DNA from: Bacteroidota bacterium
GTDB lineage: Bacteria > Bacteroidota > Bacteroidia > Chitinophagales > Chitinophagaceae
DNA length: 64,000 nucleotides
Direction of reading: 5' to 3'
NCBI GenBank assembly: GCA_018268035.1
Contig: JAFDXI010000122.1
Location: forward strand, 1 to 64,000
A program made the translations under genes and the position numbers. The notes under the pieces were generated by a model that searched no databases, was not told the DNA's origin, and was given only the letters and a program-made list of their open reading frames with translations. Below are positions 40,340 through 60,413 of this stretch, one piece after another (the first letter of the stretch is position 1; the number at the start of each line of letters is the position of its first letter).

Positions 40340-40381
40340 TTTTTTCATTTGAAAAACAAGAGCAACAAATTAAATTTTTGC

Positions 40382-41960: not shown

Positions 41961-44708
41961 ATGGATATGCTGGTTAAAGTGAAGACATCATTTGCTTTTT
42001 TATTGTTGCTGTTATGCAGTAGTGTGATAGTGTGTGCCCAATCACCCTGGGAAAGGCTTGCAAAAAAACATTCCACATTACAACTTGAAAAAGGTTTTGA
42101 ATCTTACAATACTTCATCATTTATATTGAAACTGGTGCGGTCATCACAAACAGTTGCAGCATTGAAACCGGTTTCAGAAAAAGATTATGATTTCACTCCC
42201 GGTGATAGTTTAAAAATCCGCAGCAGCAATGGCATGTATCATTTAGGTGATATCAATCTTCGTTTAAAAACTACAGGTGATACAGGTTGGAAAAATTATT
42301 CCACCGCTGCAGACCGTAAGCCTGTATTACCATTAAAAGCAAACGGTAATATTTTAGCAGCTGCTGATTTGAGTGCAACACTGCCTGCTGATATTCCTGT
42401 TGATGTGCAACGATTCTGGGAAGAAAAAGATGGTAAACTTGTATTGCGCTTTGAGTTAATCAATAAATCATCACAACCTGTTGAAATCGGTTCACTCGGA
42501 ATCCCAATGATTTTTAATAACCTGCTTGATGGAAAGACTTTGGAAGAAGCACATAAACAAAATGTTTTTTATGACCCGTATATCGGGCTTGATGCAGGAT
42601 ACCTGCAGGTAACAAGATTGAATGGTCATGCTCCCACATTGCTTGTGCTGCCATATAACAAAACACCTTTTGAAGCATATAACCCTTTGCTTGATGACCC
42701 CACACCACGTGGTATTGTGTTTGAAGGTTTTTATGAATGGATGGTGCATAGCAAAGCTTATGCAGAAAACGAATGGAAAAATGCGCAACCGTGGAATACG
42801 CCAACATCAGAAATTTTGCAACCCGGTGAAAAGTGCAGTTATGGTGTGGAGTTTATTTTATCAGGCACACCAAAAGATATTGAGACAACTCTTGAAAAAA
42901 ATAACATGCCTGTTGCAGTGGGCATCCCTGGTTATGTGTTGCCACAGGATGTGAACGGCACATTGTTTCTTCAATATAAAAGCAAGGTAAAAGAACTGAA
43001 AGTAGAACCACAGGGTGCTCTTCAGTTAACTAAAATACAATCACCCAATGCCGCATTACAAACATATTCTATTCATGGAAAAACATTCGGACGTGCCAGG
43101 CTGACTATAGTATATGAAGATGGGTTAGTACAAACTATTCAATATAAAGTCACACAGCCTGAATCAGAAGTTATAAAAAATTTTGGTCATTTTCTAACCA
43201 CAAAACAGTGGTATGAAAACAACAACGACCCGTTTCACCGCAGCCCGGGTATTATTACTTATGATTATGAAAAACAACAACAGGTGGTGCAGGACAACCG
43301 TGCATGGATTTGCGGACTCAGCGACGAAGGCGGAGCCGGTGGCTGGCTGGGTGCAGTAATGAAACAATTGGTGATGCCCGATAAAGATGAAATAGAAAAA
43401 TTAGAACGTTTTGTTGATACCACTTTATGGGGACATCTACAATACAGTGATGGCGTACACAAATACGGTGTACGAAAAAGCTTATTTTATTATGCGCCTG
43501 ATTCAATGCCTGCAGGCACTTATGATCAGTCAATCAATTTCAAAACCTGGTCTGCATGGCCACAACAGGAAGCTGCATCAGTAGAAAGGGCATATAATTA
43601 TCCGCATGTTGCTGCAGCTTACTGGGTATTATACAGGATTGCAAGAAACCATGATGGGCTTGTAACCAATCATACATGGAACTGGTACCTCACGCAGGCT
43701 TATCATACTACGATGGCGATGATGCAACAGGCGCAGTATTACACACAGTTTGGTTTGATGGAAGGCTCTGTATTTTATTTTATACTGAAAGATTTGAAAG
43801 CAGAAGGAATGATTGATATGGCAACAACAATGGAAGCCGAAATGAAAACAAGGGCATTGCATTGGGACAACCTTGAATTTCCTTTTGGCAGCGAAATGCC
43901 ATGGGATTCTACAGGCCAGGAAGAAGTGTATATCTGGTGTCTGTACTTTGGTTATACTGATAAAGCAGAAGTTACTTTAAATGCAATCTTAGGTTATATG
44001 CCCGCTATACCTTCATGGGCATATAATGGCAACGCTCGTCGCTACTGGGATTTTTTATATGGAGGGAAAACACAGCGCATCGAAAGAATGATACATCATT
44101 ACGGTTCAGAGCTGAATGCTATTCCTGTTTTAACGGAATACCGCAACCATCCTGATGATTTGTATTTGTTGCGGTTAGGTTATGGTGGCACATTAGGGGG
44201 TATCTCAAACATGACTGAAGATGGTTTTGCTCCCTGTGCATTTCATTCTTTTCCATCCACGTTGAAAAATGATGGCATCAATGGTGATTATGGTTCCGGT
44301 TTTTATGGTTATGCAATTAATACTGCTACATATTTAGTGCATGATAAAAAATTCGGATGGCTTTCATTTGGCGGCAATCTTAATATTAAAAATGATTGGA
44401 TAAATGTTGATATCACTACAGCATCAAAACAAAAAATTTTTATTGCGCCTGCCGGTATATGGATTACTCTGGCAGCAGGTCAGTTGCAAAAAGCTTCTTA
44501 TAATCTTAATTCAAAAAAGATTCAACTTTTGCTTGCAGCTAAAGATAGTTATACACCAACAGCCTATATTAAAATTGAACAACCTGCTTTGCAAAAAGTA
44601 ACAGGAAATTATGTTGTGAAAAATAACGCTGTTGACAAACGTGGATTTTATCCTGTAACATTAAACAGCACAAATACAACTGTTGAACTTGAAGTGAGTG
44701 GTCAATAA
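41961..44708 (+). CDS. DUF5695-type secreted protein, candidate glycoside hydrolase
   Basis: About 915 residues. A signal peptide (VKTSFAFLLLLLCSSVIVCAQ region) leads into an N-terminal beta-rich part to residue ~430, then a helical, aromatic-rich C-terminal part with GLSDEGGAGGWLGAVMKQL, NYPHVAAAYWVLYRIARNH and LEFPFGSEMPWDSTGQEEV, the pattern of an (alpha/alpha)6 barrel. I associate it with the uncharacterised DUF5695 family. The Asp/Glu-containing MPWDSTGQEEVYIW is a possible active-site region, but I cannot assign catalytic residues. It sits among arabinose and hydroxyproline genes, so a role in glycan trimming is inferred. ATG 41961 or 41967 is the start; the frame itself opens at a TTG inside the inverted repeat. 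Confidence 0.75.
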   Translation: MDMLVKVKTSFAFLLLLLCSSVIVCAQSPWERLAKKHSTLQLEKGFESYNTSSFILKLVRSSQTVAALKPVSEKDYDFTPGDSLKIRSSNGMYHLGDINLRLKTTGDTGWKNYSTAADRKPVLPLKANGNILAAADLSATLPADIPVDVQRFWEEKDGKLVLRFELINKSSQPVEIGSLGIPMIFNNLLDGKTLEEAHKQNVFYDPYIGLDAGYLQVTRLNGHAPTLLVLPYNKTPFEAYNPLLDDPTPRGIVFEGFYEWMVHSKAYAENEWKNAQPWNTPTSEILQPGEKCSYGVEFILSGTPKDIETTLEKNNMPVAVGIPGYVLPQDVNGTLFLQYKSKVKELKVEPQGALQLTKIQSPNAALQTYSIHGKTFGRARLTIVYEDGLVQTIQYKVTQPESEVIKNFGHFLTTKQWYENNNDPFHRSPGIITYDYEKQQQVVQDNRAWICGLSDEGGAGGWLGAVMKQLVMPDKDEIEKLERFVDTTLWGHLQYSDGVHKYGVRKSLFYYAPDSMPAGTYDQSINFKTWSAWPQQEAASVERAYNYPHVAAAYWVLYRIARNHDGLVTNHTWNWYLTQAYHTTMAMMQQAQYYTQFGLMEGSVFYFILKDLKAEGMIDMATTMEAEMKTRALHWDNLEFPFGSEMPWDSTGQEEVYIWCLYFGYTDKAEVTLNAILGYMPAIPSWAYNGNARRYWDFLYGGKTQRIERMIHHYGSELNAIPVLTEYRNHPDDLYLLRLGYGGTLGGISNMTEDGFAPCAFHSFPSTLKNDGINGDYGSGFYGYAINTATYLVHDKKFGWLSFGGNLNIKNDWINVDITTASKQKIFIAPAGIWITLAAGQLQKASYNLNSKKIQLLLAAKDSYTPTAYIKIEQPALQKVTGNYVVKNNAVDKRGFYPVTLNSTNTTVELEVSGQ

Positions 44709-44812: not shown

Positions 44813-44890
44813 TGTGAGGAACAAATATTTATTATCAATTGTCGGACAATAATGATTAATTTTTTCACCCAGTATATTCAGACAAAAAAT

Positions 44891-47452
44891 ATGAGCAACA
44901 TCAAATATAGCTTCACCTCATTGTTATTATTTATCATGGCTGTAGTACAGGCACAAACATCTGCTACTGTCACAATTGATGTATCAAAAAAAATGGCTAT
45001 TGTTTCTCCAATGTTGCATGGAATTTTTTTTGAGGAAATTAGTCACGCAGGCGAGGGAGGTCTATATGCAGAGCTGATACAAAACCGTGGATTTGAAGAA
45101 GCCAATATCCCGTCGGGAATGACATTGGTTAATGATTTTATTGTTCCACCACAAACACCCGGTTTTACTTTGCCCAACAATGAAGTGAGTGATTGGAAAA
45201 TGCCCTGGGGAATAAAAACTGAATATCCTGCATGGAGCTACAAAGCCAATGACAACGCGGTTTTGCAGGTTTCAAGAACAACTGAATCACCTTTAAATGC
45301 TGCCACGCCTCATTCATTACAGGTTGATATTTCAAAAGCGGATAATTATAATAAAGTTGACATCATCAATGAAGGTTTTTGGGGCATCAATGTTGTGAAA
45401 GGTGATGATTATCTTTTGAATTTTTATTTCCACAGTAATAATTATTCAGGAAATATTTCTGCTCAATTACTAGCTGCTGATGGAAAAGTATTGGCCTCTC
45501 ATATTTTTTCTTCAGCTAACAATAACGAATGGAAAAAATACAGTGCGGTATTGCATGCAACTGCAACAGACAGCAAAGCAAAATTTGTTTTATCATTTAA
45601 TAACACAGGGACAATATGGTTGGATTTTGTTTCATTGTTTCCTGCAAAAACTTTTAAGAACAGAGCGAATGGATTAAGACAAGACCTGGCTCAATACATT
45701 GCAGATTTAAAGCCCGCATTCATTCGATGGCCGGGTGGTTGTTTTGTTGAAGGCATCACTATTCAATCTGCACCTGACTGGAAACAAACAATCGGGCCTG
45801 TTGAACAAAGAACCGAAACTTACAGTCCTTGGGGATATTATACAAGCAATGGTTTTGGCTATCATGAATACCTGCAGTTTTGTGAAGATATTGGTGCTGC
45901 TGCATTATATGTTTTTAATGCAGGTGTTTCCTGTGAATACCGCAGCGGCACTTATGCAACGGATGATAGTCTGCAGCCTTATATTCAAAGTGCATTGGAT
46001 GCAATTGAATATGCTATTGCTCCTGTTACAAGCAAATGGGGAAAACTGCGTGCAGCCAATGGCCACCCAAAACCTTTTCCATTGAAATATGTAGAAGTTG
46101 GTAATGAACAAAGCGGGCCCAGATATGCAGAACGTTACAATAAATTTTATGATGCCATCAAAACAAAATATCCGCAGGTAATCATCATAGCAAGCATGGG
46201 TATTGGCGATGTGAATGAATTCACCACAAAGCAAATGCAACACATAGATTATGTAGATGAACATGCATATAAAGCAGCAGGTTGGGCATTTACTCATTAC
46301 GATCATTTTGATAAATATCCACGGGATAAATGGAAAATGTATGTGGGTGAATATGCAACTAATGCAGGCGTGGGCAATGGTGATATGGAAGCATCTTTGA
46401 GCGATGCAGTGTATATGATGGCGATGGAAAAAAACAGTGACCTGGTAAAGATGAGCAGTTATGCTCCATTGCTGGTGAATGATAATGATGTGGACTGGCC
46501 TGTCAACCTCATTCATTTTGATAATGCAAAAAGTTTTGCACGCATATCCTATTATGCCATCAAAATGTTTAATGAAAACAAACCAACTTATAATCTTACA
46601 ACCAGTGTAAAAATTTTACAGCAGGAATCAAAGCAACCGCAATTTAGCGGCGGCATCGGACTTGCCACCTGGGATACAAAAACAGCATACAAAGACATTG
46701 AAGTAATTAAAGATGAAAAAACCATTTTCAATAGTGATTTTATACATGATTTAAAAAATTGGGAAATGCTTCGAGGTCAATGGCAAGCCAGTGACAGTGC
46801 ATTATCACAAACGGCTTTAGGCGCACAAACATTTGCCATGTTGAAAAATAAAAACTTCGATACTTACACATTAAAATTGAAAGCAAAAAAACTGGAAGGG
46901 TATAATGCGTTCATCATCCCTTTTGCTGTGAAAGACAGCAATACTTTTTATAGGGCACATATTGGCGCATGGGTAAATAAAATTGCAGTGTTTGAAAAAG
47001 TAACCAATGGAGATGATGTTAGTAATATTTCATCTGCCGTTAATTTGCCCGATACTATTCAACCGGGAAGATGGTATGATATAGAATTGCAAGTTGGTGT
47101 TGATACAGTGAAATGTTATTTGAATGGAAAATTATTAATGAGCTATACAGAGCCGGATAAATTCTTTGCTATCTCAGGTAAAGATGAAACAAGTGGCGAT
47201 ATCATTGTAAAAATGGTGAATGCATATAACAATGAAATGCCAGTGCAGATTGATTTTAAAAATATTGTATCCCTGCAACCCAATGCAGAAATAGTTACAC
47301 TATCTGCACCGCATCTTACTGATGAAAATTCATTTCAGCAACCCACACAATATGTTCCTGAAAAAAAATCTATTTATTTAAACAGTAAAAATCCCGCTTT
47401 CAAAATAAAGCCTTATTCCATTAATGTTTTGAGGATAAAATACCGGAGATAA
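44891..47452 (+). CDS. Alpha-L-arabinofuranosidase, GH51, with additional lectin-like domains
   Basis: About 853 residues. The signal peptide ends near MAVVQAQ. The GH51 catalytic barrel has RWPGGCFVEG, the acid/base E406 in VEVGNEQSG and the nucleophile E487 in VGEYATN. An N-terminal carbohydrate-binding-like insertion (residues ~100-250) and a laminin-G-like C-terminal part (NWEMLRGQWQASDSALSQ onward, with CYLNGKLLMSY) give the long form of GH51 seen in plants and Bacteroidota. It removes alpha-L-arabinofuranose from arabinans, arabinoxylan or arabinosylated glycoproteins. ATG 44891 is favoured over 44852, since it opens the signal peptide. It should be periplasmic or surface-exposed. Confidence 0.93.
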   Translation: MSNIKYSFTSLLLFIMAVVQAQTSATVTIDVSKKMAIVSPMLHGIFFEEISHAGEGGLYAELIQNRGFEEANIPSGMTLVNDFIVPPQTPGFTLPNNEVSDWKMPWGIKTEYPAWSYKANDNAVLQVSRTTESPLNAATPHSLQVDISKADNYNKVDIINEGFWGINVVKGDDYLLNFYFHSNNYSGNISAQLLAADGKVLASHIFSSANNNEWKKYSAVLHATATDSKAKFVLSFNNTGTIWLDFVSLFPAKTFKNRANGLRQDLAQYIADLKPAFIRWPGGCFVEGITIQSAPDWKQTIGPVEQRTETYSPWGYYTSNGFGYHEYLQFCEDIGAAALYVFNAGVSCEYRSGTYATDDSLQPYIQSALDAIEYAIAPVTSKWGKLRAANGHPKPFPLKYVEVGNEQSGPRYAERYNKFYDAIKTKYPQVIIIASMGIGDVNEFTTKQMQHIDYVDEHAYKAAGWAFTHYDHFDKYPRDKWKMYVGEYATNAGVGNGDMEASLSDAVYMMAMEKNSDLVKMSSYAPLLVNDNDVDWPVNLIHFDNAKSFARISYYAIKMFNENKPTYNLTTSVKILQQESKQPQFSGGIGLATWDTKTAYKDIEVIKDEKTIFNSDFIHDLKNWEMLRGQWQASDSALSQTALGAQTFAMLKNKNFDTYTLKLKAKKLEGYNAFIIPFAVKDSNTFYRAHIGAWVNKIAVFEKVTNGDDVSNISSAVNLPDTIQPGRWYDIELQVGVDTVKCYLNGKLLMSYTEPDKFFAISGKDETSGDIIVKMVNAYNNEMPVQIDFKNIVSLQPNAEIVTLSAPHLTDENSFQQPTQYVPEKKSIYLNSKNPAFKIKPYSINVLRIKYRR

Positions 47453-47520
47453 TTATAAATGTCTTTAATACAATTCAACTATAAGATAGTAAAATTTCAT
47501 TAATAACATTGCATAAAAAA

Positions 47521-47601: not shown

Positions 47602-49965
47602 TTACTCCTTTATCGTCCTCACACCAAAAACCCTTCCGGCAGTTTTCCCGTTTACTGACTGAACCCTTACCTTGATGATTGTTTTGTCTTTCAGCAATGC
47701 AGCAGGTATTGAATATTCTTCGTCATAAAATTTACCTGCTTCTTTGCTATCTAAATTTACTGTTGCAATTTTTTCTCCATCCACCAGTATATCAAAACTG
47801 CGGTTCCTGTCATCACCATTATATGTGAACAATAAACCTGTGGGTTTATTGGGTTCCACTTTCATATCAAATGAAAAAAAGCCGTTGCGTGATTCACGTC
47901 CTGAACGACCATAAGCATCACCTACATAAGATTGTTCACTTGCTTCTAAATTATGGTCGCGTTCAGGCTGCATTTCACCAATGCGGAAATTATCAATTGT
48001 CTTTGCTTCTAATTCCTGTTGATATTTTTTGTCTGCTTCATATTGTGCTTGTTTCGCATCCCAGTCTGCATTGGTAAAATAATCCCAGTAAACACTATAA
48101 TGATTGTCTATATTCTGATAAAAAGGTGTCAGTGTTACATCAAATGGTTTACCTGTATTTTTTGTATAAAATGTGAGTGGTTTGTTTTCATCTTTCACAA
48201 CCCAGTCATTTATATTACGATTGTCTGTTAAGAAAACAGGTGTACCATAAACAGGGTCGGGCATGGTGTCGCCCAAATTACCTGCGAGTACAAGCGGGCC
48301 ATACAACAATGCTACTCGGTTTTTGTTGTCGGGCATACTTTCAGTATATAAACTTATATCAAATTCTGTTTCTATTGTATCGCCATCGTTCCATGATTTA
48401 TTGATGACAAGAAAACCATCTTTATCTTTTATTGTATTAAAAACTTTTCCGTTCACTTTTATAACACCTGTATTTTTTGCCCACCAGGGTTGACGAATTT
48501 TTACAGGAAATGCAATTGTATTTTTTGTTGAAATGATAATTGTCGTTACACCGTTTTCAGGATATTTTGTGTGTTGTGTGATGGTTACATTTTTGTCTTT
48601 CCAGTTGAGTTGTGAAGGAATGAAAAGGTTTACATATAAACTGCCATCAGTGCCTTCAAAATATATATCCTCCGTGTATTTGCTGTGGTTCTCCATACCG
48701 GTACCCACGCAACAGGTGAATGTGTTGAATGAATCGCTGAATTGTTTTTTACCACCCATCCGCAATGGTTCAAAATATAAAGTCATTGCATTTTTTGGAT
48801 TTTGCGAAGCCAGTATATCATTATACAATGTGCGTTCATAATAATCGCCCAGTTTTGCTGATGGTTGCCAGGTAAACAATTGCCCTGTAAGTTTGAGCAT
48901 GTTATATGCACAGCAACTTTCAGTATTGTTATCACTTAGAGTATTATTGAGTTTATCAGGCTCTCCTAAATATTCATAATTGCCATTGCCGCCGGTTACA
49001 TAAGCATGATGAAGTGCCAGCAAATCCCAACCACGTGAGGCGATTGTTGCATCACTTTTATTCGCTGTCAGTTCATATTGACGGGCACTGCCTATAATCT
49101 TAGGGATATTGGTGTTGGAATGTTTACCAGCCAGCGGATCTGGCTTACCTTCAGCTAAAGGTTGCATGACAAAATCATCATGAAATTTATATGAAAGGTC
49201 AAGATATTTTTTATTGCCGGTGATAGCATAAATATTTGCCAATACATCATTCATGCCACCAAATTCACAACGCAACATTTTATGTCGTTGTTCATCGGTG
49301 AGCGGGTCAACAATTGTTGCCACCCAGTCAGCCATTTTCTTTACAATATCTAATGCTTTTAAATTATCGCAATACAAAAAAGCATCCACTAAACCAGCCA
49401 TCACTTTATGTGTTGTGTACCAGGGAACCCATCCGCCATTGAGGTCAAACCCGCCTGTCCTGATATCACCTCTCTGCACCTGGTGAAAAATAGAATCTTC
49501 ATTAGGAATAGCGCCAACATACCCGGTCTTGCGGGCAGCCTGGCATTTTGCTAATTCGTTCACGATATATGCAACCCTTTCCTTGAACCTGATATCACCT
49601 GTGGAAGCATACATCATTGAACAGGCAGACAAATAATGCCCCAATGTATGACCGGAAATCCCTTCAACTTCCCATCCGCCATAAGCGCTGTCTTTTGGCG
49701 GCAGGCCTGCATTTTTATCAAAACGGTTGAGCAACCTGTCTGCACTTAATGACAACAGGTAACCGCCATCAATTTCCATTGCATGTTTAAACGGGCTGTT
49801 GTCAATCAACCTCACATCTTTTAAATTAAAAGCATAAGCCTGTAATTTCACTTCAGGTTGCACTTTAAACTTGCTGTTATTTTTTTCAGGGAGATATGAT
49901 TGCGAAGACGCAACATGAAAAATGCTGAAAGCAATAATTGTAAAAAAAATATTCTTGATTTGCAT
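47602..49965 (-). CDS. Beta-L-arabinofuranosidase, GH127-type (DUF1680)
   Basis: About 787 residues, with a signal peptide (NIFFTIIAFSIFHVASSQ). The catalytic (alpha/alpha)6 barrel contains GWEVEGISGHTLGHYLSAC and GGWVPWYTTHKVMAGLVDA. The metal and nucleophile site known from the Bifidobacterium longum enzyme HypBA1 (E338, C340, C417, C418) is intact: E349 and C351 in NTESCCAYNMLK, C418 and C419 in FTCCVGTGMENHS. HypBA1 removes beta-L-arabinofuranose from hydroxyproline-linked beta-arabinooligosaccharides of extensins. The related family GH146 shares this fold and activity, so the exact family number should be checked. It is divergent from the DUF885 gene. Confidence 0.88.
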   Translation of the reverse strand: MQIKNIFFTIIAFSIFHVASSQSYLPEKNNSKFKVQPEVKLQAYAFNLKDVRLIDNSPFKHAMEIDGGYLLSLSADRLLNRFDKNAGLPPKDSAYGGWEVEGISGHTLGHYLSACSMMYASTGDIRFKERVAYIVNELAKCQAARKTGYVGAIPNEDSIFHQVQRGDIRTGGFDLNGGWVPWYTTHKVMAGLVDAFLYCDNLKALDIVKKMADWVATIVDPLTDEQRHKMLRCEFGGMNDVLANIYAITGNKKYLDLSYKFHDDFVMQPLAEGKPDPLAGKHSNTNIPKIIGSARQYELTANKSDATIASRGWDLLALHHAYVTGGNGNYEYLGEPDKLNNTLSDNNTESCCAYNMLKLTGQLFTWQPSAKLGDYYERTLYNDILASQNPKNAMTLYFEPLRMGGKKQFSDSFNTFTCCVGTGMENHSKYTEDIYFEGTDGSLYVNLFIPSQLNWKDKNVTITQHTKYPENGVTTIIISTKNTIAFPVKIRQPWWAKNTGVIKVNGKVFNTIKDKDGFLVINKSWNDGDTIETEFDISLYTESMPDNKNRVALLYGPLVLAGNLGDTMPDPVYGTPVFLTDNRNINDWVVKDENKPLTFYTKNTGKPFDVTLTPFYQNIDNHYSVYWDYFTNADWDAKQAQYEADKKYQQELEAKTIDNFRIGEMQPERDHNLEASEQSYVGDAYGRSGRESRNGFFSFDMKVEPNKPTGLLFTYNGDDRNRSFDILVDGEKIATVNLDSKEAGKFYDEEYSIPAALLKDKTIIKVRVQSVNGKTAGRVFGVRTIKE

Positions 49966-50368
49966 AGTAAAAGGAATATAATACAAAATGAAAAAAATGC
50001 AGGAAGAAATCCTACACGTATTTTAACTGATTGAATAATGGATTTATCTTTTATAAAAATTTTATTGCAACTAAATGATCAATCTGCCTTTCAAAATGTT
50101 TGAATGCAAACTATTTGATGATGCTGCAGCTTTATGACAAAATGATAATTTATTGTGCCAATATTAATTCATTGTAAATAGAAAAATTTGATTATTTGTG
50201 ATAATATAACGCTATCACATTTTGCGTTAAAGACAAATTTTATCAATCACTTTAGTAAGTACATTGCCTTTCAGGTTAATTTATTAATTCACTACAACAA
50301 AAGGTTAATAATCGTAAATAACTATTCATTGCTTGTTTTTAATTTCACGCCTGAACATAAAAATAGTT
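49966..50368. other. 403-bp divergent regulatory region
   Basis: No gene seen between the starts of the GH127 and DUF885 genes. It is very AT-rich and holds the inverted repeat listed at 50197-50219. It probably contains two promoters. Confidence 0.55.
50197..50219. promoter_or_regulatory. Perfect 7-bp inverted repeat, possible operator
   Basis: TGTGATA (50197-50203), nine bases, TATCACA (50213-50219). The half sites look like those of CRP/FNR-type regulators but the gap is too long for the classical 22-bp CRP site. It is 150 bp before the DUF885 start. Confidence 0.35.
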
Positions 50369-52117
50369 ATGCATTTCAAAAATTGCTTTGTGAAATTATT
50401 TGTATGCAGTGGTATAATTTTTTCAATTGCAATACAAGCGAAAGCACAGCCGGCACCAGAGCCACCTTTGTACCAGCAGACCAGCGAAGTGAACAATGTG
50501 ATGGTTCAGTACTATGCAGATTATGGCAACCTTTCCCGCTTTTATGTTATTGAAAATTCTCCCGAAAGAAGGCAGAAGTTACTGGCAACAGTAAACAGGT
50601 ATATTGATACTTTAGATAAACTCGATTTTGATAAACTCAACACAGGGACAAAAGTTGATTATATCTTATTCAACCGTGATTTGCATGAACAACAATACCA
50701 GTTAAACAAAGAAGCTAAAGAATACGATGCAACCAAACAGTGGTTCCCTTTTGCAGATAGTATTTATGCTTATGAAAAATTACGCAGGCGTGGAGCAATG
50801 CTGAATGCACAAAAACTGGCTGCTGACTTAACTATCTGGAGCGGCCAAATAAACAAGTTGCAGAAAAAATTAGCACAACAAACGTCCATTAGTTTTGATT
50901 TGGCAGAGCGTGCAATAGGTACTACAGATGGTTTGCGGGATGCATTAAAAAGTATTTATGATTTTTATAATGGCTATGATCCATTATTCACATGGTGGGT
51001 GCCACAACCGTATGCTGTTACTGATAGTTTGCTGAAAATTTATGGCAACACCATCAAAGCAAAAGAAAGATCTGAAACTGTTCAACAAAAAGATAGCAGT
51101 GGTATAAAAGGCAACCCTATTGGTTTGGAAGAATTAAAAAGCAGGCTGAAATATGAAATGATTGATTACACACCTGATGAACTGATTGCGATTGCTAATA
51201 AAGAATTTAGCTGGTGTCAACAGGAAATGCTGAAAGCAAGCAGGCAAATGGGTTATGGTGATAACTGGAAAGCGGCATTGGAAAAAGTAAAAGAAAGTTA
51301 TGTGCCACCAGGTGAACAACCTACTGCAATGCTTGACATTTATAACGCGTCATTAAACTTTATTAAACAACATAATTTAATTACCATTCCACCATTAGCT
51401 GAAGAAACCTGGCGTATGCGCATGATGACCCCTGAACAACAAAAGATAAATCCATTTTTCACAGGCGGGGAAGAATTCAGTATTTCATATCCTACTGATA
51501 GTATGAGTGAAGATGACAAGCTGATGAGTATGCGTGGCAACAACCCGCATTTTTCAAGAGCTACTGTACATCATGAATTATTTGCCGGCCATGCGTTGCA
51601 GGAATTTATGTCAGCACGATATAAAACATACCGGCATTTTCCAACAGCATTTTGGATTGAAGGCTGGAGCCTGTATTGGGAAATGCTGCTGTGGGATGAA
51701 GGCTTTGCGCAAACACCAGAAGATAAAATAGGAATGTTGTTTTGGCGGATGCACCGTTGTGCAAGAATTATTTTTTCAATCAATTACCACACGGGCAAAT
51801 GGTCACCACAACAGTGCATTAATTTTTTGGTAGATAGTGTAGGGCATGAACGTGCTAATGCTGAAGGTGAAATACGCAGGTCTTTTGAAGGTGGTTATGA
51901 CCCATTGTACCAGATAGGTTATATGATTGGCGGTTTACAGATTATGCAACTGAAACATGAATTGGTTGACACTGGTAAAATGTCTTACAAACAATTTCAT
52001 TATTTATTCATCCGGCAAAATATGATGCCAATTGAAATGGAGAGAGCGATACTTGAAGATTTACCTTTGACCAAAAATTATACAATTCAATGGAGGTTTT
52101 ATAAACTGAAAAATTAA
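50369..52117 (+). CDS. Secreted DUF885 family zinc metallopeptidase (predicted)
   Basis: About 582 residues. A signal peptide (LFVCSGIIFSIAIQAKAQ) targets it to the periplasm or outside. The DUF885 metal motif is present in modified form: H402, E403 and H408 in HHELFAGHALQEF, where the usual form is HExxPGHHLQ, and the third ligand motif EGWSLYWE follows. DUF885 proteins are related to carboxypeptidase/dipeptidase-like gluzincins. Its stop codon overlaps the start of the hydroxyproline dehydrogenase gene in TAATG, so the two products are made together; it most likely frees hydroxyproline from peptides. That is inference. Confidence 0.88.
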   Translation: MHFKNCFVKLFVCSGIIFSIAIQAKAQPAPEPPLYQQTSEVNNVMVQYYADYGNLSRFYVIENSPERRQKLLATVNRYIDTLDKLDFDKLNTGTKVDYILFNRDLHEQQYQLNKEAKEYDATKQWFPFADSIYAYEKLRRRGAMLNAQKLAADLTIWSGQINKLQKKLAQQTSISFDLAERAIGTTDGLRDALKSIYDFYNGYDPLFTWWVPQPYAVTDSLLKIYGNTIKAKERSETVQQKDSSGIKGNPIGLEELKSRLKYEMIDYTPDELIAIANKEFSWCQQEMLKASRQMGYGDNWKAALEKVKESYVPPGEQPTAMLDIYNASLNFIKQHNLITIPPLAEETWRMRMMTPEQQKINPFFTGGEEFSISYPTDSMSEDDKLMSMRGNNPHFSRATVHHELFAGHALQEFMSARYKTYRHFPTAFWIEGWSLYWEMLLWDEGFAQTPEDKIGMLFWRMHRCARIIFSINYHTGKWSPQQCINFLVDSVGHERANAEGEIRRSFEGGYDPLYQIGYMIGGLQIMQLKHELVDTGKMSYKQFHYLFIRQNMMPIEMERAILEDLPLTKNYTIQWRFYKLKN

Positions 52118-53382
52118 TGGATATGAAAACAGTCGTTGTCATCGGTGGCGGTATAATTGGTTTAAGCAGTGCTCTGTATTTAAAGCGTTCTGGTAATAAT
52201 GTAATTGTCATTGACAGGGAGGGTTTTACTGATAATTGTTCTTATGGTAATATGGGTTATGTGTGCCCAAGCCATTTTATTCCATTGGCTTCTCCGGGCA
52301 TTGTATGGCAGGGCTTGAAATGGATGTTCAACAGCCGAAGCCCTTTTTATGTACAACCCTCTCTCAATCCTTCTTTGATTGACTGGGGTTTGAAATTTAT
52401 GCGTAGCGCTACAAAGAAAAATCTTGAAACTGCAGCAACACCATTAAAAGATATTGCAGTTCTCAGTCAGAGTGAATATGCTGAATGGACAAAGATTGAA
52501 AATTTTGATTTTGCTTTTGAAAAAAAAGGTATACTCGAAATATTCAAGACAGAAAAAGTTGCTGAGCATGCTGTACATACTGTTGAGACAGGAAAGAAAT
52601 TAGGATTGGATGTTGATTTGCTGGATGCAAAGGGATTGCAGCAGGCAGAACCACAAACTACGATTGATGCACTGGGCGCCATCTATTTTAAATGCGATGC
52701 ACATTTATATCCCAATAAATTAATGTCTGTTCTTAAAAATTACCTGCCGCAACAAGGTGTACAGATGATACATGATGAAGTAACCGGTTTTGAAAAAACC
52801 GGTGATAAAGTGCAACAGGTATTGACAAAGACAAAACAAAGTTATGCTGCTGATGAAGTGATTGTGGCCACTGGCTCGTGGAGCAAGGGAGTTGCATCAA
52901 TGCTCGAAACGAAAATACCATTGATGCCTGGCAGAGGATATTCCTTTACTTTAGACCAACCCAAGGATAAGCTCATTCATCCCGCAATTCTTGCTGAGGG
53001 AAGGGTTGCCATTACACCATTTGAGAGTGGAAATAAAATGCGGTATGGTGGCACCATGGAAGTGGTAAGCACAAACACTCCTCCCCGGTATCAACGTGTC
53101 GAAGGGATTGTGCAGGCAGTAAAAAGCTTTTTACCAGAGTTTGATATTGAATTACCTGCAAAGGATAAAATATGGTATGGATATCGGCCCACTTCGGCTG
53201 ATGGTCTGCCTTATATCGGTAGAATAAAAAAATATAAAAATGTAATCGTTGCTACAGGGCATTCTATGCTGGGCCTGAGTTTAGGTGCAGGCACAGGCAG
53301 GCTCGTGAGTGAGCTGTCCAATGGGCAACCAACCAGTATTGACGTACAAGCATTTTCAGTGGAAAGGTTTAATAAAAAATAA
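52117..53382 (+). CDS. FAD-dependent D-hydroxyproline dehydrogenase/oxidase (DadA-like)
   Basis: A 421-residue flavoprotein of the DAO family. The FAD-binding Rossmann motif VVVIGGGIIGLSSALYLK begins at residue ~5; YGNMGYVCPSHFIPLASPG and C-terminal GYRPTSADGLPYIGRI and TGHSMLGLSLGAGTGRLV are typical of D-amino acid dehydrogenases and hydroxyproline-specific members. In this context it should oxidise cis-4-hydroxy-D-proline to 1-pyrroline-4-hydroxy-2-carboxylate, the step between the epimerase and the deaminase. It completes the four-enzyme route within the window. A second ATG lies two codons in. Confidence 0.9.
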   Translation: MDMKTVVVIGGGIIGLSSALYLKRSGNNVIVIDREGFTDNCSYGNMGYVCPSHFIPLASPGIVWQGLKWMFNSRSPFYVQPSLNPSLIDWGLKFMRSATKKNLETAATPLKDIAVLSQSEYAEWTKIENFDFAFEKKGILEIFKTEKVAEHAVHTVETGKKLGLDVDLLDAKGLQQAEPQTTIDALGAIYFKCDAHLYPNKLMSVLKNYLPQQGVQMIHDEVTGFEKTGDKVQQVLTKTKQSYAADEVIVATGSWSKGVASMLETKIPLMPGRGYSFTLDQPKDKLIHPAILAEGRVAITPFESGNKMRYGGTMEVVSTNTPPRYQRVEGIVQAVKSFLPEFDIELPAKDKIWYGYRPTSADGLPYIGRIKKYKNVIVATGHSMLGLSLGAGTGRLVSELSNGQPTSIDVQAFSVERFNKK

Positions 53383-53394
53383 AAAATAAAAAAA

Positions 53395-54519
53395 ATGAAA
53401 GCAACCAGATTACAAATTCTTATTTGTGTAATTATTTTATTTACTGCATGCAACCAGGGTGTAAAGGAAAATGGCGCCAATAAAAAGGGTGTTACAAAAA
53501 AGGAATGGGGAACGGTAGATGATAAACCTGTTTATTTATTTACGCTTACAAACAGTAAAGGTGATTATGTAACCATCTCAAATTATGGGAGCACAGTTAC
53601 ATCTTTTGTAGTGCCGGACAAGAACGGAAATAAATCCGGAATCATTATTGGCTTTGATAGTTTAAGCACTTATCTTAAACACCCACCATATTTTGGAGCA
53701 ACAATTGGAAGGTATGGCAACAGGATTGGCAATGCACAATTTAAATTGGGCGACAGCACTTATCACCTCGCAGCTAATGATGGTAAAAACAGTTTGCATG
53801 GTGGATTGAAAGGTTTTGATAAAGTGGTTTGGGATGCGATGGTTGCCGATAGCACAAGCCCTGAATTATCTCTTACTTACCTGAGTAAAGATGGCGAAGA
53901 AGGTTATCCCGGGAATTTAAAAGTTACAGTTACCTATACTTTTACTGATAGTGATGAATTGAAAATACAATATGCTGCTGAAACCGATAAACCAACCCCT
54001 GTTAATCTTACCAACCATAGTTATTTTAATTTATCAGGTGATGTGAATAATACCATTCTGGATCACACATTAATGATAGATGCAGATGCCTACACACCTG
54101 TTGATTCAACATTGATTCCAACCGGAGAAATTAAACCAGTTAAAGGCACACCTTTTGATTTTACAACTGCAAAAAAAATAGGCCTTGATATCAGTGCAGT
54201 GCCGGGAGGATATGACCACAACTGGGTATTGAATAACAAAAATGGAGCTTTGGCAAAAGTGGCTGTCTTATCAGATGTTGTTAGCAGGCGCTCCCTTGAA
54301 GTGTTTACAACAGAGCCTGGCCTTCAATTTTATGCCGGCAATTTTTTAGACGGAAGTTTTATCAACCGTGATGGTAAGCCGATACAACTTCGCACTGCAC
54401 TTTGTCTTGAAACGCAACATTTTCCTGATTCGCCCAACAAACCGGGGTTCCCTTCAACAATCTTGCAACCTGGGCAACAGTATAGTAGTACAACAATTTA
54501 TAAAGTAATTGTACAGTAG
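53395..54519 (+). CDS. galM: Aldose 1-epimerase, lipoprotein
   Basis: A 374-residue mutarotase with a lipobox at C19 (LFTACNQG), so it is anchored in the periplasm or outer membrane. Family motifs are GATIGRYGNRIGNAQF, NDGKNSLHGGLKGFDKVVW, TNHSYFNLSG and the Glu near LCLETQHFPDSPNKPGF. It interconverts alpha and beta anomers of free sugars, here most likely arabinose, which is released in a fixed anomeric form. It is 12 bp after the hydroxyproline dehydrogenase gene, which ties amino acid and sugar catabolism in one operon. Confidence 0.93.
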   Translation: MKATRLQILICVIILFTACNQGVKENGANKKGVTKKEWGTVDDKPVYLFTLTNSKGDYVTISNYGSTVTSFVVPDKNGNKSGIIIGFDSLSTYLKHPPYFGATIGRYGNRIGNAQFKLGDSTYHLAANDGKNSLHGGLKGFDKVVWDAMVADSTSPELSLTYLSKDGEEGYPGNLKVTVTYTFTDSDELKIQYAAETDKPTPVNLTNHSYFNLSGDVNNTILDHTLMIDADAYTPVDSTLIPTGEIKPVKGTPFDFTTAKKIGLDISAVPGGYDHNWVLNNKNGALAKVAVLSDVVSRRSLEVFTTEPGLQFYAGNFLDGSFINRDGKPIQLRTALCLETQHFPDSPNKPGFPSTILQPGQQYSSTTIYKVIVQ

Positions 54520-54608: not shown

Positions 54609-54631
54609 ATAATTGTTTGTATGACAATTAT
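54609..54631. promoter_or_regulatory. Inverted repeat upstream of araB, copy 1
   Basis: ATAATTGT (54609-54616), TTGTATG, ACAATTAT (54624-54631): perfect 8-bp arms with a 7-bp spacer. Candidate operator for the arabinose operon. Confidence 0.55.
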
Positions 54632-54716: not shown

Positions 54717-54739
54717 ATAATTGTAAAAATGACAATTAA
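54717..54739. promoter_or_regulatory. Inverted repeat upstream of araB, copy 2
   Basis: ATAATTGT (54717-54724), AAAAATG, ACAATTAA (54732-54739). Same layout as copy 1 with one end mismatch; the spacers share a final ATG. Its centre is 108 bp from that of copy 1 and it ends 43 bp before the araB ATG. Confidence 0.55.
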
Positions 54740-54782: not shown

Positions 54783-56447
54783 ATGAAACAAGCTGACAAA
54801 TTTGTAATTGGAGTTGATTATGGAACAGATTCGGTTAGGTCTGTTATATTAAATGCAGTATCGGGTGATGAAGTTGCAGCTTCTGTATTTTATTACCCGA
54901 GATGGAAGGATGGTTTGTATTGCAGCCCACAGCAAAACCAGTTTCGTCAACATCCGAAAGATTATATAGAAGGGCTTGAAACCACAATAAAAGACTGTAT
55001 TCATAAAGCAGGACTGAATGTTGCAGAAAATATTGTTGCACTTTCAGTTGATACCACCGGTTCCACTCCTGTTTCAGTTAATCAGCAGGGTGTGCCTTTA
55101 GCTTTGTTGCCTCAGTTTGAAAACAATCCAAATGCGATGTTTGTTCTTTGGAAAGATCACACTTCGGTAAAAGAAGCGGCAGAGATAAATGATCACGCAA
55201 AAAAATTTGATGTGAACTACCTGCAATATGTGGGCGGCATTTATTCTTCAGAATGGTTTTGGAGTAAGCTTTTACATATTGTAAGGATTGATGAAGATGT
55301 TCGCAGCGCCTGTTATTCATGGGTAGAACATTGTGACTGGATACCTTTTCTTTTAACTGGTGGCAACGATGTAAGCCAGATGAAACGCAGTGTGTGTGCT
55401 GCAGGTCACAAAGCATTGTGGGCTGCTGAATTTGGCTTGCCTCCGAATAATTTCTTTAGTTCGCTTGATCCATTGCTGAATGGTTTTTCTTCAAGACTAT
55501 TTGCTGAAACATATACATCTGATAAAGCCGCAGGGCATCTCTCAGGTCAATGGGCTGAACGATTAGGTTTATCCACAAACGTTATCATTGGTGTTGGCGC
55601 ATTTGATGCACACATGGGTGCTGTTGGTGGACAGATAGAGCCTTATCATTTAAGCAAAGTGATGGGCACATCCACCTGTGATATGCTGGTAGCGCCGATG
55701 GATGAAGTAAAAAATATTTTGGTTAAAGGTATTTGTGGACAGGTGCCTGGTTCTGTAATTCCGGGCATGATGGGTATGGAAGCAGGACAAAGCGCATTTG
55801 GTGATGTGTATGCCTGGTTCAGGAATTTGATTACAACCCCTGTAAAAAACCTGTTGAAAAATTCTGCTGTTATTGATGCTGGTGTTGCAGCATTATTGAT
55901 GAAAGAATTAAATGATAAACTCATCTCACATCTTTCATGTGAAGCTGCAAAAATTAGTTTGAATGAACATGATGAGCTCGCTGTTGACTGGTTAAACGGA
56001 AGAAGGACACCCGATGCCAACCAGGAGTTGGAAGCTGCAATCATGCATTTAAGCTTGGGTACCGATGCACCACATATTTTTAAAGCATTGGCAGAAGCAA
56101 CCTGCTTTGGCGCCAGGGCAATTGTTGAAAGATTTATCCGTGAAGGTATCAGTGTAAAAGGTTTGATTGGTTTAGGTGGTGTTGCAAAAAAATCACCTTA
56201 TATTATGCAGGTTATGGCTGATGTTATGAACATGCCAATCCGCATCCATAAAAGTGAACAGACCTGTGCAATAGGTGCTGCTATGTTTGCCGCTACTGCT
56301 GCAGGTGTTTATGATAAAGTGGAAAACGCGATGCAGGCAATGGGGCAAGGCTTCGACGCTGAATATAAACCCGATAATAAGAATATTGACTTATATAATA
56401 AACGGTTTGAAAAATATAAAGCATTAGGAAAATTTATTGAACAATAA
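54783..56447 (+). CDS. araB: Ribulokinase
   Basis: A 554-residue FGGY-family kinase that phosphorylates L-ribulose at O5. The N-terminal ATPase motif is FVIGVDYGTDSVRSVILN; the segment WKDHTSVKEAAEIND and the C-terminal GLIGLGGVAKKSPYIMQVM are specific to ribulokinases. Length matches AraB (about 560). It is the first gene of a five-gene arabinose operon and is preceded by two inverted repeats. Confidence 0.95.
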   Translation: MKQADKFVIGVDYGTDSVRSVILNAVSGDEVAASVFYYPRWKDGLYCSPQQNQFRQHPKDYIEGLETTIKDCIHKAGLNVAENIVALSVDTTGSTPVSVNQQGVPLALLPQFENNPNAMFVLWKDHTSVKEAAEINDHAKKFDVNYLQYVGGIYSSEWFWSKLLHIVRIDEDVRSACYSWVEHCDWIPFLLTGGNDVSQMKRSVCAAGHKALWAAEFGLPPNNFFSSLDPLLNGFSSRLFAETYTSDKAAGHLSGQWAERLGLSTNVIIGVGAFDAHMGAVGGQIEPYHLSKVMGTSTCDMLVAPMDEVKNILVKGICGQVPGSVIPGMMGMEAGQSAFGDVYAWFRNLITTPVKNLLKNSAVIDAGVAALLMKELNDKLISHLSCEAAKISLNEHDELAVDWLNGRRTPDANQELEAAIMHLSLGTDAPHIFKALAEATCFGARAIVERFIREGISVKGLIGLGGVAKKSPYIMQVMADVMNMPIRIHKSEQTCAIGAAMFAATAAGVYDKVENAMQAMGQGFDAEYKPDNKNIDLYNKRFEKYKALGKFIEQ

Positions 56448-56505: not shown

Positions 56506-58044
56506 ATGAATATAAAAAGACTGTTTGCTTTTGCAGCATTTATCTTAACCATAAAAGCTTTGTCAGCACAACAGGTGCAGATGACGATGACTGATACTTC
56601 GCACCAGGTAATCAGCAAATATATTTATGGCCATTTTGCAGAAGATCTTGGTCGTTGTATTTATGGTGGTTTCTGGGTTGATTCCAATCTTGATGTTGCA
56701 AAGAATGACAGGTTGCGTTTAGATGTAATTGATGCTTTAAAAAAATTGCATATCCCTGTCCTGCGTTGGCCGGGTGGTTGTTTTGCAGACCAGTATCATT
56801 GGGAAGATGGTATTGGTGACCGTAGCAAAAGACCAGTGCGTGTTAATACTACCTGGGGCATGGTGCCTGATGATAATAGTTTTGGTACAGATGAATTTTT
56901 GAAGCTCTGCAAACTGCTGGGCACTGAACCATACATTGCAGGTAATGTGGGCACAGGCACACCAAAGGAAATGGAAGACTGGTTGGAATATTTGAATTAC
57001 AATGGCGAAAGTACATTGGCTGATATGCGACGTAAAAATGGACACGATGCGCCCTACAATGTTTCTTTTTGGGGAGTGGGTAATGAGAGCTGGGGTTGTG
57101 GTGGAAATATGACACCAGAATATTATTCAGATCTCTATAAACGCTATTCAGAATTCTGTAAAGATTATCCCGGCACTAAATTGAAAAAGATTGCGAGTGG
57201 CGCTAATTCGGATGATTATCACTGGACAGAAGTGTGCATGAAAAATATTCCTGTATCAAATATGTGGGGCATTTCAATGCATTACTATACAATTGTAAAC
57301 ACCTGGAATGAAAAAGGCTCTGCTACCAATTTTGGAGAAGATGGATATTTTAATGGAATGAAAAAATGCCTCGATATAGAAACCCTGATTAATAAGCACA
57401 GTGCAATAATGGATAAATATGACCCGCAGAAAAAAGTTGCATTGGTTGTAGATGAATGGGGTATATGGACAGATGCTGAACCAGGCACCAATCCTGCATT
57501 TTTATACCAGCAAAACAGCCTGCGTGATGCATTGATTGCAGCATCTACTTTGAATATTTTTAATATTCACAGCGACAGGATAAAGATGGCTAACCTGGCA
57601 CAGATAGTGAATGTGTTGCAGGCATTGGTGCTGACTGATAAAGAAAAGATGTTGCTTACACCAACCTATTATATTCTTGACATGTATCAATATCACCAGG
57701 ATGCCACTTTGATCCCTTTAAAATTTCAGAGCCCGCTTTATGCGTATGGAAATGAAAACATACCGGCTATCAATGCATCGGCATCAAGAGATAGTAACGG
57801 CGCTGTGCATATCACTTTGGTAAATCTTGATCCGAGAAAAGAAATAACAATCAATACAACAGTACCCGCATCATTAAAATCTGTTACAGGTGAAATATTA
57901 AATTCAGATAAATATACCGACATCAACACGTTCGACAATCCGGGAAAGGTTAAGCTGAAAGCCTTTACCGGTGCGGCGTTGAAAGGTTCTGCATTGAGTG
58001 TAAAGATGCCTGCACATTCTGCAGTAATGCTGGAACTGAAATAA
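56506..58044 (+). CDS. Alpha-L-arabinofuranosidase, GH51 (short form)
   Basis: A 512-residue GH51 enzyme with a signal peptide (LFAFAAFILTIKALSAQ), so probably periplasmic. YGHFAEDLGRCIYGGFWVD and LRWPGGCFADQYHW are characteristic; the acid/base is E194 in GVGNESWG and the nucleophile E317 in VDEWGIW. It lacks the added domains of the other GH51 in this window. Being located inside the araB-araD operon, it probably finishes off short arabino-oligosaccharides to free arabinose. Confidence 0.94.
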   Translation: MNIKRLFAFAAFILTIKALSAQQVQMTMTDTSHQVISKYIYGHFAEDLGRCIYGGFWVDSNLDVAKNDRLRLDVIDALKKLHIPVLRWPGGCFADQYHWEDGIGDRSKRPVRVNTTWGMVPDDNSFGTDEFLKLCKLLGTEPYIAGNVGTGTPKEMEDWLEYLNYNGESTLADMRRKNGHDAPYNVSFWGVGNESWGCGGNMTPEYYSDLYKRYSEFCKDYPGTKLKKIASGANSDDYHWTEVCMKNIPVSNMWGISMHYYTIVNTWNEKGSATNFGEDGYFNGMKKCLDIETLINKHSAIMDKYDPQKKVALVVDEWGIWTDAEPGTNPAFLYQQNSLRDALIAASTLNIFNIHSDRIKMANLAQIVNVLQALVLTDKEKMLLTPTYYILDMYQYHQDATLIPLKFQSPLYAYGNENIPAINASASRDSNGAVHITLVNLDPRKEITINTTVPASLKSVTGEILNSDKYTDINTFDNPGKVKLKAFTGAALKGSALSVKMPAHSAVMLELK

Positions 58045-58149: not shown

Positions 58150-58848
58150 ATGAATAAATATGCCCACATACAACAAGAAGCTTTTGAAGCAAACATGCAG
58201 TTGCCTGAATTGAAATTGGTTTTATACACGTTTGGAAATGTGAGTGCTGCAGACAGGAGCAAAGGAGTATTTGCAATAAAGCCAAGTGGTATCCCTTATC
58301 ATGATCTGACCCCTGAAAAAATGGTAGTGGTTGATTTTGATGGAAAAGTTGTTGAAGGGAGTCTTAGGCCATCATCAGACACATTAACACATGCTGTGTT
58401 GTATAAACATTTCATAACTGTTGGCGGTATTGCGCACACCCATTCTACTTATGCAACAGGTTGGGCGCAAAGCCTGCGTGATATACCGATTTATGGAACT
58501 ACACATGCAGACCATACCACCTGCGACATACCTTGTGCAGCGCCAATGAGTGATGAAATGATACAGGGTGATTATGAATACCAGACCGGCTTCCAGGTTA
58601 TTGATGCTTTAAAAGAAAGACAGTTGAATTATACTGATGTTGAAATGATTTTAGTGGGCAACCATGCACCGTTTACCTGGGGAGCTACTGCAGCAAAAGC
58701 AGTTTATAACAGTGCAGTGCTGGAAGAAATTGCAAAAATGGCTTTTATTACTGAAACAGTGAATGCTGATGCGAGGCGTTTGAAAAATGCTTTGATAAAA
58801 AAACATTATGATAGAAAACATGGCAGTGGCAGTTATTATGGGCAATAA
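58150..58848 (+). CDS. araD: L-ribulose-5-phosphate 4-epimerase
   Basis: A 232-residue class II aldolase-fold epimerase. The zinc ligands are in GGIAHTHSTYATGWAQ and the distal His in LVGNHAPFTWG; THADHTTCDIPCA is an AraD signature. It converts L-ribulose 5-phosphate to D-xylulose 5-phosphate, which enters the pentose phosphate pathway. It lies between the short GH51 gene and araA. Confidence 0.96.
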   Translation: MNKYAHIQQEAFEANMQLPELKLVLYTFGNVSAADRSKGVFAIKPSGIPYHDLTPEKMVVVDFDGKVVEGSLRPSSDTLTHAVLYKHFITVGGIAHTHSTYATGWAQSLRDIPIYGTTHADHTTCDIPCAAPMSDEMIQGDYEYQTGFQVIDALKERQLNYTDVEMILVGNHAPFTWGATAAKAVYNSAVLEEIAKMAFITETVNADARRLKNALIKKHYDRKHGSGSYYGQ

Positions 58849-58916: not shown

Positions 58917-60413
58917 ATGACAGATCTTAAACAGTTTGAAGTCTGGTTTATCACAGGCAGCCAGCACCTGTATGGTGAAGAAACTTTAAAGCAGGTATCG
59001 GCACATGCAGAAGAAATTTCAAAATACCTCAACGCATCAAAAGCAATCAGTACAAGCATTGTATTTAAACCTATTGTTACCACACCGGACGAAATTACTG
59101 CCTTGTGCAGGGAAGTGAATGCTAATCAAAAATGCATTGGTATCATTTCCTGGATGCATACTTTTTCGCCGGCAAAAATGTGGATCAACGGATTGAAAAT
59201 TTTGCAAAAACCTTTACTGCATTTGCATACACAATACAACCGCGATATCCCATGGAGCAGTATAGATATGGATTTTATGAACCTGAATCAAAGCGCACAT
59301 GGCGACAGGGAGTTTGGCTTTATAGTTAGCCGTTTGCGTAAGGAAAGAAAAGTGGTGGTGGGCCATTGGAAGGATAAGGATGTGATAAAAAATATTGATG
59401 CATGGTGCCGAGCCGCAGCAGGTTGGAATGATTGGCAGGGTGCAAAGTTTGTGCGCTTTGGCGACAACATGCGTTATGTAGCAGTAACTGATGGTGATAA
59501 GGTAGAAGCAGAATATAAATTTGGATTTTCTGTAAACACACATGGCATTGGCGATTTGGTTAAAGTAATCAATACAATCAGTGATGCTGAAGTGGATGCT
59601 TTGATAAAAGAATATGAAAATGCTTATACATTAAGTGCATCATTGCAGAAAAAAGGAAAGAAAAGACAATCATTAAAGGATGCTGCAAGAATTGAGCTTG
59701 GCCTGAAAGCCTTTCTTGAAGATGGAAATTTTAAAGGCTTTACTGACACTTTCGAAGACTTGTATGGCATGAAACAACTACCCGGCATTGCCGCACAGCG
59801 GATCATGGAAGCAGGTTATGGTTTTGCAGGCGAAGGTGACTGGAAAACATCTGCACTGGTTAGGGCAATGAAAGTAATGGGTAGTGGTTTAAAAGGCGGC
59901 AACAGTTTCATGGAAGATTACACCTATCATTTTGAACCGGGTAATGAAATGGTCCTGGGTGCACACATGCTTGAAATTTGTTCCTCTATTGCAGACGGAA
60001 AACCTGCTTGTGAAATTCACCCTCTTGGTATTGGTGGAAAAGAAGACCCTGTGCGGTTGGTGTTTAATGTTGCAGGTGGCAATGCATTAAATGCATCAAT
60101 CATTGATATGGGCAATCGCTTCAGGTTGTTGGTAAATGAAGTGCAGGCAGTAAAACCAAAAAATAAATTACCAAAACTTCCTGTTGCAAGGGTATTATGG
60201 AAACCATTACCTGATATGAAAACCGGATGTGCTGCATGGATCTATGCAGGTGGTGCACACCATACTTGTTACAGCCAAAACCTAAGCAGTGAACAGTTGC
60301 AGGATTTTGCTGACATAGCTGGAATTGAGTGTGTCCTGATTAACCGAGATACCAGGCTCAACCAGCTCAGGAATGAATTGAGGTGGAGTGAATATTATTG
60401 TCAAAATAAATAA
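58917..60413 (+). CDS. araA: L-arabinose isomerase
   Basis: A 498-residue isomerase that turns L-arabinose into L-ribulose. It begins with the family's [20 protein letters not shown] and contains [20 protein letters not shown], the catalytic Glu regions [21 protein letters not shown]-like and the final [14 protein letters not shown]. Length equals E. coli AraA (500). It is followed by the symporter gene after 26 bp. Confidence 0.97.

Follow-up and report, generated by a model that had tools for sequence, protein, structure and literature searches.

The window analysed here is the whole 64,000-nt stretch at the start of contig JAFDXI010000122.1 from a Bacteroidota bacterium of the Chitinophagaceae (GCA_018268035.1). 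At positions 50369-54519 it carries three consecutive genes, for a DUF885 metallopeptidase-like protein, a flavin adenine dinucleotide (FAD)-dependent oxidoreductase and an aldose-1-epimerase, which form the middle part of a 31-kb island (30852-62128; Table 1). As judged by Pfam and NCBIfam profile matches on its 18 proteins, the island contains all the families of the 4-hydroxyproline (Hyp) pathway, together with a complete L-arabinose pathway and both α- and β-arabinofuranosidases; it also holds a SusC/SusD pair, glycoside hydrolases (GH) and a regulator, the combination by which a polysaccharide utilization locus is recognized.

The three-gene core

The stop codon of the DUF885 gene (52115-52117) overlaps the ATG of the oxidoreductase gene (52117-52119) as TAATG, and the ATG of the epimerase gene (53395) follows 12 bp after the oxidoreductase stop (ending at 53382), exactly as given in a preliminary description of this DNA. 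The DUF885 open reading frame (ORF) starts at a TTG at 50333, ahead of 50369, and the DUF5695 frame at a TTG at 41931, ahead of 41961. The same description called the second and third proteins a hydroxyproline dehydrogenase and an arabinose mutarotase; the families (PF01266 and PF01263) are confirmed, but these names derive from context and not from sequence models, NCBIfam placing the former as D-amino-acid dehydrogenase-like, under the cut-offs, and the latter, which carries a lipobox-like LFTAC, as galactose mutarotase-like. The proposal that all three form one operon holds in part. Of 80 homologous loci, 21 have DUF885 and the Hyp dehydrogenase (HypDH) co-directional and ~150 bp or less apart, an adjacency far beyond chance; ORF starts at these loci were those of the longest frame, which makes the gaps approximate. 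The strict trio including the mutarotase is seen in the window only, the mutarotase being part of the arabinose module (compare the order araB-araD-GalM-araA-DUF885 at locus L093). A scan for sigma-70-like promoters and terminators around the core operon, with a model that is not of the Bacteroidota type, gave background level only. The island clearly comprises several transcription units; separate promoters, which the preliminary description had named among its refuting conditions, would thus not by themselves refute a common glycopeptide substrate.

On the Hyp side, the epimerase (HypE), the sole PF05544 gene of the genome, carries two catalytic-type cysteine motifs, MCGHGT and CGTGT. The DapA-family protein scores under the dapA equivalog cut-off, and the aldehyde dehydrogenase (ALDH) has α-ketoglutarate semialdehyde (α-KGSA) dehydrogenase as its top NCBIfam match, with a score far under the cut-off.

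Hydroxyproline and arabinose genes in related genomes

Across a class sample of 295 genomes, HypE is present in 22 and the DUF885 subfamily of the window in 13, and all 13 fall within the 22 (hypergeometric 3e-17, or 4e-10 by genus, which is the fairer figure since genomes are related); seven of the 13 have both genes no more than ~23 kb apart. In a neighborhood sample of 80 DUF885 loci from named genomes, drawn from Chitinophagaceae, Sphingobacteriaceae, Flavobacteriaceae, Hymenobacteraceae and others, 29 loci, from at least five families, have two or more Hyp genes within 10 kb of DUF885. A culturable relative that carries the Hyp-DUF885 genes is Chitinophaga filiformis DSM 527 (L077). The label 'Hyp neighbor' switches at least 10 times on a tree of 81 DUF885 sequences, and the association is therefore not one inherited block. 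Most Hyp islands have the FAD dehydrogenase next to HypE or DUF885, and the set of deaminase, oxidase and ALDH stands beside HypE in most relatives examined; orthologs of the APC permease (62-74% identity) occur in other Hyp islands, and that of the AraC regulator adjoins Hyp genes in G014, G015, L027, L034, L052, G585 and others.

This co-occurrence supports a Hyp-peptide role for the DUF885 subfamily. It could also arise from a shared life on plant material, with DUF885 acting as a general periplasmic peptidase that has no preference for Hyp, as the breadth of the family and the many DUF885 loci lacking Hyp neighbors would allow; we regard this as unlikely, given that every one of the 13 subfamily genomes carries an epimerase that is itself rare, and given the tight co-directional adjacency to HypDH in 21 loci.

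On the arabinose side, within ~20 kb either side of 21 HypE genes there are 9 GH127/146 genes, where 0.36 would be expected from the genome-wide number of such genes (~25-fold enrichment). In G260, which belongs to another family, a single run reads symporter-AraA-GH27-AraD-AraB-DUF5695-DUF885-HypDH-HypE-ALDH-HypD, with one extra small ORF between AraB and DUF5695; it is an independent, full island of arabinose, Hyp, DUF885 and DUF5695 genes. The G585 island has the order HypDH-GH146-permease-HypE-ALDH-HypD-AraC-DUF5695-GH51-SusC, its GH51 being a 57% ortholog of the upstream GH51-type protein of the window (44852-47452), and in G065 four Hyp genes adjoin DPP4-GH146-DUF885-GH127-SusD-SusC. Locus L186 is headed by a SusC/SusD pair 63% and 62% identical to that of the window, followed by GH127-GH146-AraC-DUF885-GH27 α-galactosidase-DPP4; a SusC ortholog of 82% identity stands next to DUF885-HypDH in L027. 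In G143 and G309, DUF885 lies near GH127/GH146 genes while the Hyp genes lie elsewhere. The symporter ortholog adjoins araA in G260 and L053. The suggestion of a glycopeptide substrate as the link between proteolysis, Hyp oxidation and the use of arabinose thus has strong support, both from the island and from its independent recurrence in relatives.

Two further enzyme types accompany DUF885 in relatives. DPP4-like S9 peptidases stand next to it in L086:6572-8890, L027:7607-9916 and L186:15864-18158 (there is none in the window), and GH27 α-galactosidases occur in DUF885 or DUF5695 loci (L186:13527-15764, L119:8595-9992, L167:16086-18332). Extensin consists of Ser-Hyp4 repeats with Ara1-4 on Hyp and a single α-galactose O-linked to Ser; because of this galactose, the combination of GH27 enzymes, β-arabinofuranosidases and proline-directed peptidases fits an extensin locus. 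GH146 and GH127 enzymes are known to act on arabinosyl-Hyp (PMC10850190, PMC6085000), and plant Hyp-rich glycoproteins, extensin among them, are typified by Hyp that bears β-arabinose (PMC6085000, PMC7263609).

Individual proteins and predicted operators

The DUF885 protein contains the sequence HELFAGHALQ, which the preliminary description had taken as an altered metal motif. Residues H402, E403, H408 and E431, likely the metal ligands, are invariant among 42 aligned sequences, and align with the HE...GH and EGW of 3iuk, 3u24 and 3o0y; these uncharacterized DUF885 structures are also the only matches of the AlphaFold2 model (predicted local distance difference test, pLDDT, 89.8). The position occupied by Pro in the usual motif is Ala in 76 of 81 homologs, with or without Hyp neighbors, and is thus a feature of the whole subfamily; the next variable position, His to Ala, is Ala in 11 of 81 (8 of them near Hyp genes), which amounts to only 2 independent phylogenetic contrasts and shows no tie to Hyp after phylogenetic correction. 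As a marker of Hyp-linked DUF885 proteins, the Pro-to-Ala change is rejected and the His-to-Ala change is unsupported, the contrasts being too few. With the putative ligands invariant and the Ala changes not tied to Hyp, the protein is predicted to be active and the argument from the motif falls. The genome encodes a second DUF885 protein of the same subfamily (L025, G000:C174:23443-25146; 44% identity); its motif reads HELIPGHNLQ, and neither Hyp nor arabinose genes lie close to it.

DUF5695 scores above cut-off in 5 of the 295 genomes, in all five near HypE; on wider sampling, about half of its loci have Hyp genes, and a strict association was rejected. Several other DUF5695 loci adjoin GH127, GH43-like, GH27 or DUF885 genes, so that most of the loci sampled show either one or the other kind of neighbor. 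For seven DUF5695 proteins, a profile search against the PDB and a weak Pfam search returned nothing usable, and an AlphaFold2 model built from two sequences reached pLDDT 36, from which no fold is claimed. We read the protein as most likely a secreted enzyme that acts on glycans or glycopeptides of the arabinosyl-Hyp substrate class; we infer a glycosidase role, which would make it a candidate for a new glycoside hydrolase family.

Among solved structures, the GH146-type protein matches 5opj best (455 bits), then 8k7x (222 bits) and 3wkw (39 bits). We take 5opj to be BT0349, a GH146 enzyme, and assign 5opj and 8k7x to GH146 and 3wkw to GH127; in this comparison the protein is closer to GH146 than to GH127. 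Its cysteine motifs TESCC (at 355) and CCVGTGM (at 425) align with those of 5opj and form a putative zinc site.

Of the four palindromes of Table 1, the two perfect ones, in tandem before araB, are predicted AraR operators and the two with 1 mismatch are AraR-operator-like; published Bacteroides AraR sites have a TGT-N7-ACA core and stand in tandem (PMC4666351); A+T-rich palindromes can arise otherwise, and the pattern at up to 3 mismatches is no commoner in the window than in shuffles. Further palindromes with 1 mismatch, at 47457 (between two convergent genes) and 51978 (inside DUF885), are probably functionless. No AraR gene is present in the window. On contig C101 the same tandem pair stands ahead of SusC, in an arabinan-type locus with an NrtR-type regulator gene. 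In relatives, AraR-like sites precede araB and araR in L093 and SusC in the G065 island; AraR-type genes lie beside the G065, L093 and G260 islands, and AraR/NrtR-type regulators next to Hyp islands at L144:15218-15925, L093:3715-4422 and L119:4499-5251. Just past the island end, 62312-63940 encodes a protein that has leucine-rich repeats and ends in a Por secretion tail.

Table 1. Genes and palindromes of the island, with family assignments and predicted functions.
Feature	Position	Strand	Basis
AraC-family regulator	30852..31730	-	PF12833 64 bits, PF02311
AraR-operator-like palindrome AAATGTCAATTATACAATT, AraC/SusC divergent promoter region	31742..31760		1 mismatch
SusC-like TonB-dependent transporter	32025..35045	+	profile match
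SusD-like lipoprotein	35066..36451	+	PF12771 230 bits
DapA-family, predicted Δ1-pyrroline-4-hydroxy-2-carboxylate deaminase	36573..37553	+	PF00701 204 bits; context
Aldehyde dehydrogenase, predicted α-KGSA dehydrogenase	37564..39072	+	PF00171 138 bits
4-Hydroxyproline epimerase	39338..40339	+	NF010578 equivalog 589.7 bits (cut-off 376)
APC amino-acid permease, predicted Hyp importer	40349..41815	+	PF13520 196 bits
AraR-operator-like palindrome, directly ahead of DUF5695 start	41929..41947		1 mismatch
DUF5695 secreted protein, predicted glycosidase of arabinosyl-Hyp pathway	41961..44708	+	PF18951 1330 bits
GH51-type α-L-arabinofuranosidase, secreted	44852..47452	+	PF22848 175 bits, PF06964 77 bits
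GH146-type β-L-arabinofuranosidase, secreted	47602..49986	-	PF07944 383 bits
DUF885 metallopeptidase-like, signal peptide-like N-terminus	50369..52117	+	PF05960 157 bits (cut-off 32.4)
FAD-dependent oxidoreductase, predicted cis-4-hydroxy-D-proline dehydrogenase	52117..53382	+	PF01266 DAO 216 bits
Aldose-1-epimerase lipoprotein, predicted AraM-like L-arabinose mutarotase	53395..54519	+	PF01263 Aldose_epim 317 bits
Predicted AraR operator 1 of araB promoter	54611..54629		perfect AATTGT-N7-ACAATT palindrome
Predicted AraR operator 2 of araB promoter	54719..54737		perfect AATTGT-N7-ACAATT palindrome
AraB ribulokinase	54783..56447	+	NF003154 706 bits (cut-off 428)
GH51-like α-L-arabinofuranosidase, secreted	56506..58044	+	PF06964 162 bits
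AraD L-ribulose-5-phosphate 4-epimerase-like	58150..58848	+	PF00596 148 bits
AraA L-arabinose isomerase	58917..60413	+	PF02610, PF24856, PF11762
SSS sodium/sugar symporter, predicted AraP-like arabinose importer	60440..62128	+	PF00474 197 bits

A utilization locus predicted for plant glycoproteins

These considerations make it probable that the island is a Bacteroidota utilization locus for β-arabinosylated Hyp-rich plant glycoproteins, most likely of the extensin type, and that the three genes are its peptide and Hyp-oxidation core. Gene content, order, families, co-occurrence and palindromes suggest a route whose substrates, compartments, reactions and regulation are all predicted. SusC and SusD would take up glycopeptides; in the periplasm, the GH51 α-arabinofuranosidases, the GH146 β-L-arabinofuranosidase and probably DUF5695 would remove arabinose from Hyp, and DUF885 would cut the Hyp/Pro-rich peptides. 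The AraM-like mutarotase would equilibrate the released arabinose, which would pass through the SSS symporter to AraA, AraB and AraD. Hyp, taken in by the APC permease, would be turned into 2-oxoglutarate by the successive action of epimerase, FAD dehydrogenase, DapA-like deaminase and semialdehyde dehydrogenase. An AraR/NrtR repressor, acting at the palindromes that precede araB and lie close to SusC and DUF5695, and the AraC regulator would link both halves under arabinose control. More tentatively, and as something we would rather doubt than assert, a widespread Bacteroidota system may consume the whole glycoprotein, both sugar and imino acid, with two dedicated parts. The DUF885 subfamily would then supply a metallopeptidase for Hyp peptides, possibly one that tolerates arabinosyl-Hyp, and DUF5695 would be a new family of glycoside hydrolases acting on Hyp arabinosides.

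Several observations weigh against the reading as a locus for β-arabinosylated Hyp-rich glycoproteins. DUF885 has no AraR-like site immediately ahead of it, and the window has no α-galactosidase; no counterparts of Bifidobacterium HypAA (GH43) and HypBA2 (GH121) were recognized in the set of 18 island proteins. In 48 of 81 DUF885 loci, and in G005, G009 and G010, no Hyp gene occurs within the flank read, and the full union of arabinose and Hyp genes is present in only a few genomes. BT0349, the closest solved relative of the GH146-type protein, lies in a rhamnogalacturonan I (RG-I) locus (PMC10850190), and the arabinose half alone could therefore serve pectin.

In place of extensin, the target could also be a different plant material that carries arabinose, for instance arabinogalactan proteins (AGPs) or arabinosylated peptide hormones: GH146 members can act on Araf-β1,3-Araf of AGPs (PMC10850190), and some DUF5695 loci have neighbors that are GH43-like, as judged from N-terminal sequence only. 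This is rather improbable, as the 18 island proteins include no galactanase-type AGP enzyme and the GH27 α-galactosidases of relatives fit the Ser-linked α-galactose of extensin. Least credible of all is a juxtaposition, by chance or ordinary clustering, of two unrelated modules, one for Hyp peptides of any source (e.g. collagen or gelatin debris) and one for pectic arabinan, which is favored by Spirosoma, Rufibacter and Pontibacter loci that have Hyp genes and DUF885 without arabinose genes, and by a distinct arabinan-type locus, accompanied by an AraR-type gene, that the genome carries on a different contig, but is opposed by the enrichment of β-arabinofuranosidases at HypE loci, by the company of DUF885 and GH127/GH146 even where Hyp genes lie elsewhere (G309, G143), and by the independent G260 island.

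Among known systems, the hypBA1/hypBA2/hypAA cluster of Bifidobacterium longum acts on β-arabino-oligosaccharides of Hyp-rich glycoproteins (PMC7263609, PMC6085000); like the island, it frees Hyp-linked arabinose with a β-L-arabinofuranosidase of the DUF1680 clan (GH127/GH146) and an α-L-arabinofuranosidase. The island differs in having SusC/SusD in place of an ABC importer, in adding DUF885 and DUF5695, and in its predicted use of peptide and Hyp; among its 18 proteins, Pfam matches, whose coverage of GH121 is uncertain, show no ABC sugar importer and no family named GH121 or GH43. In Xanthomonas euvesicatoria (XeHypBA1/BA2/AA), the GH146 enzyme is active on arabinosyl-Hyp, and a prolyl oligopeptidase gene, of a different family from the island peptidase, stands broken beside the XeHyp genes; the portion of PMC6085000 available reports neither Hyp catabolism nor araBAD alongside. 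The known trans-4-hydroxy-L-proline pathway consists of an epimerase, an oxidase of the D-amino-acid oxidase family, a deaminase of the dihydrodipicolinate synthase family and an α-KGSA dehydrogenase (PMC4113996); all four families are in the island, but spread over two gene groups and joined with a glycan-degrading locus and DUF885. The Bacteroides araMPRDAB operon, with its NrtR-type AraR, shares with the island a mutarotase (AraM, known in B. theta), symporter, kinase, epimerase, isomerase and tandem TGT-N7-ACA palindromes (PMC4666351); in the island, the mutarotase sits in the DUF885-HypDH operon and an AraC regulator stands at SusC/SusD. BT0349 of Bacteroides thetaiotaomicron, the best solved match of the GH146-type protein, has its place in the RG-I locus mentioned above, whereas the island substrate is predicted.

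No published description of such a locus was found in the open-access literature. The island is a known kind of system, a Bacteroidota utilization locus, in a new combination that would address one plant glycoprotein for its sugar, its peptide and its imino acid alike. Few plant wall proteins resist proteases as strongly as the Hyp-rich glycoproteins; the Bifidobacterium and Xanthomonas systems are described as taking the arabinose, whereas the island is predicted to draw on peptide and Hyp too. If this is true, a recurring Bacteroidota locus would explain how glycoprotein carbon and nitrogen are recycled, and DUF885 and DUF5695 would gain candidate functions; both could serve as tools for the analysis of extensin.

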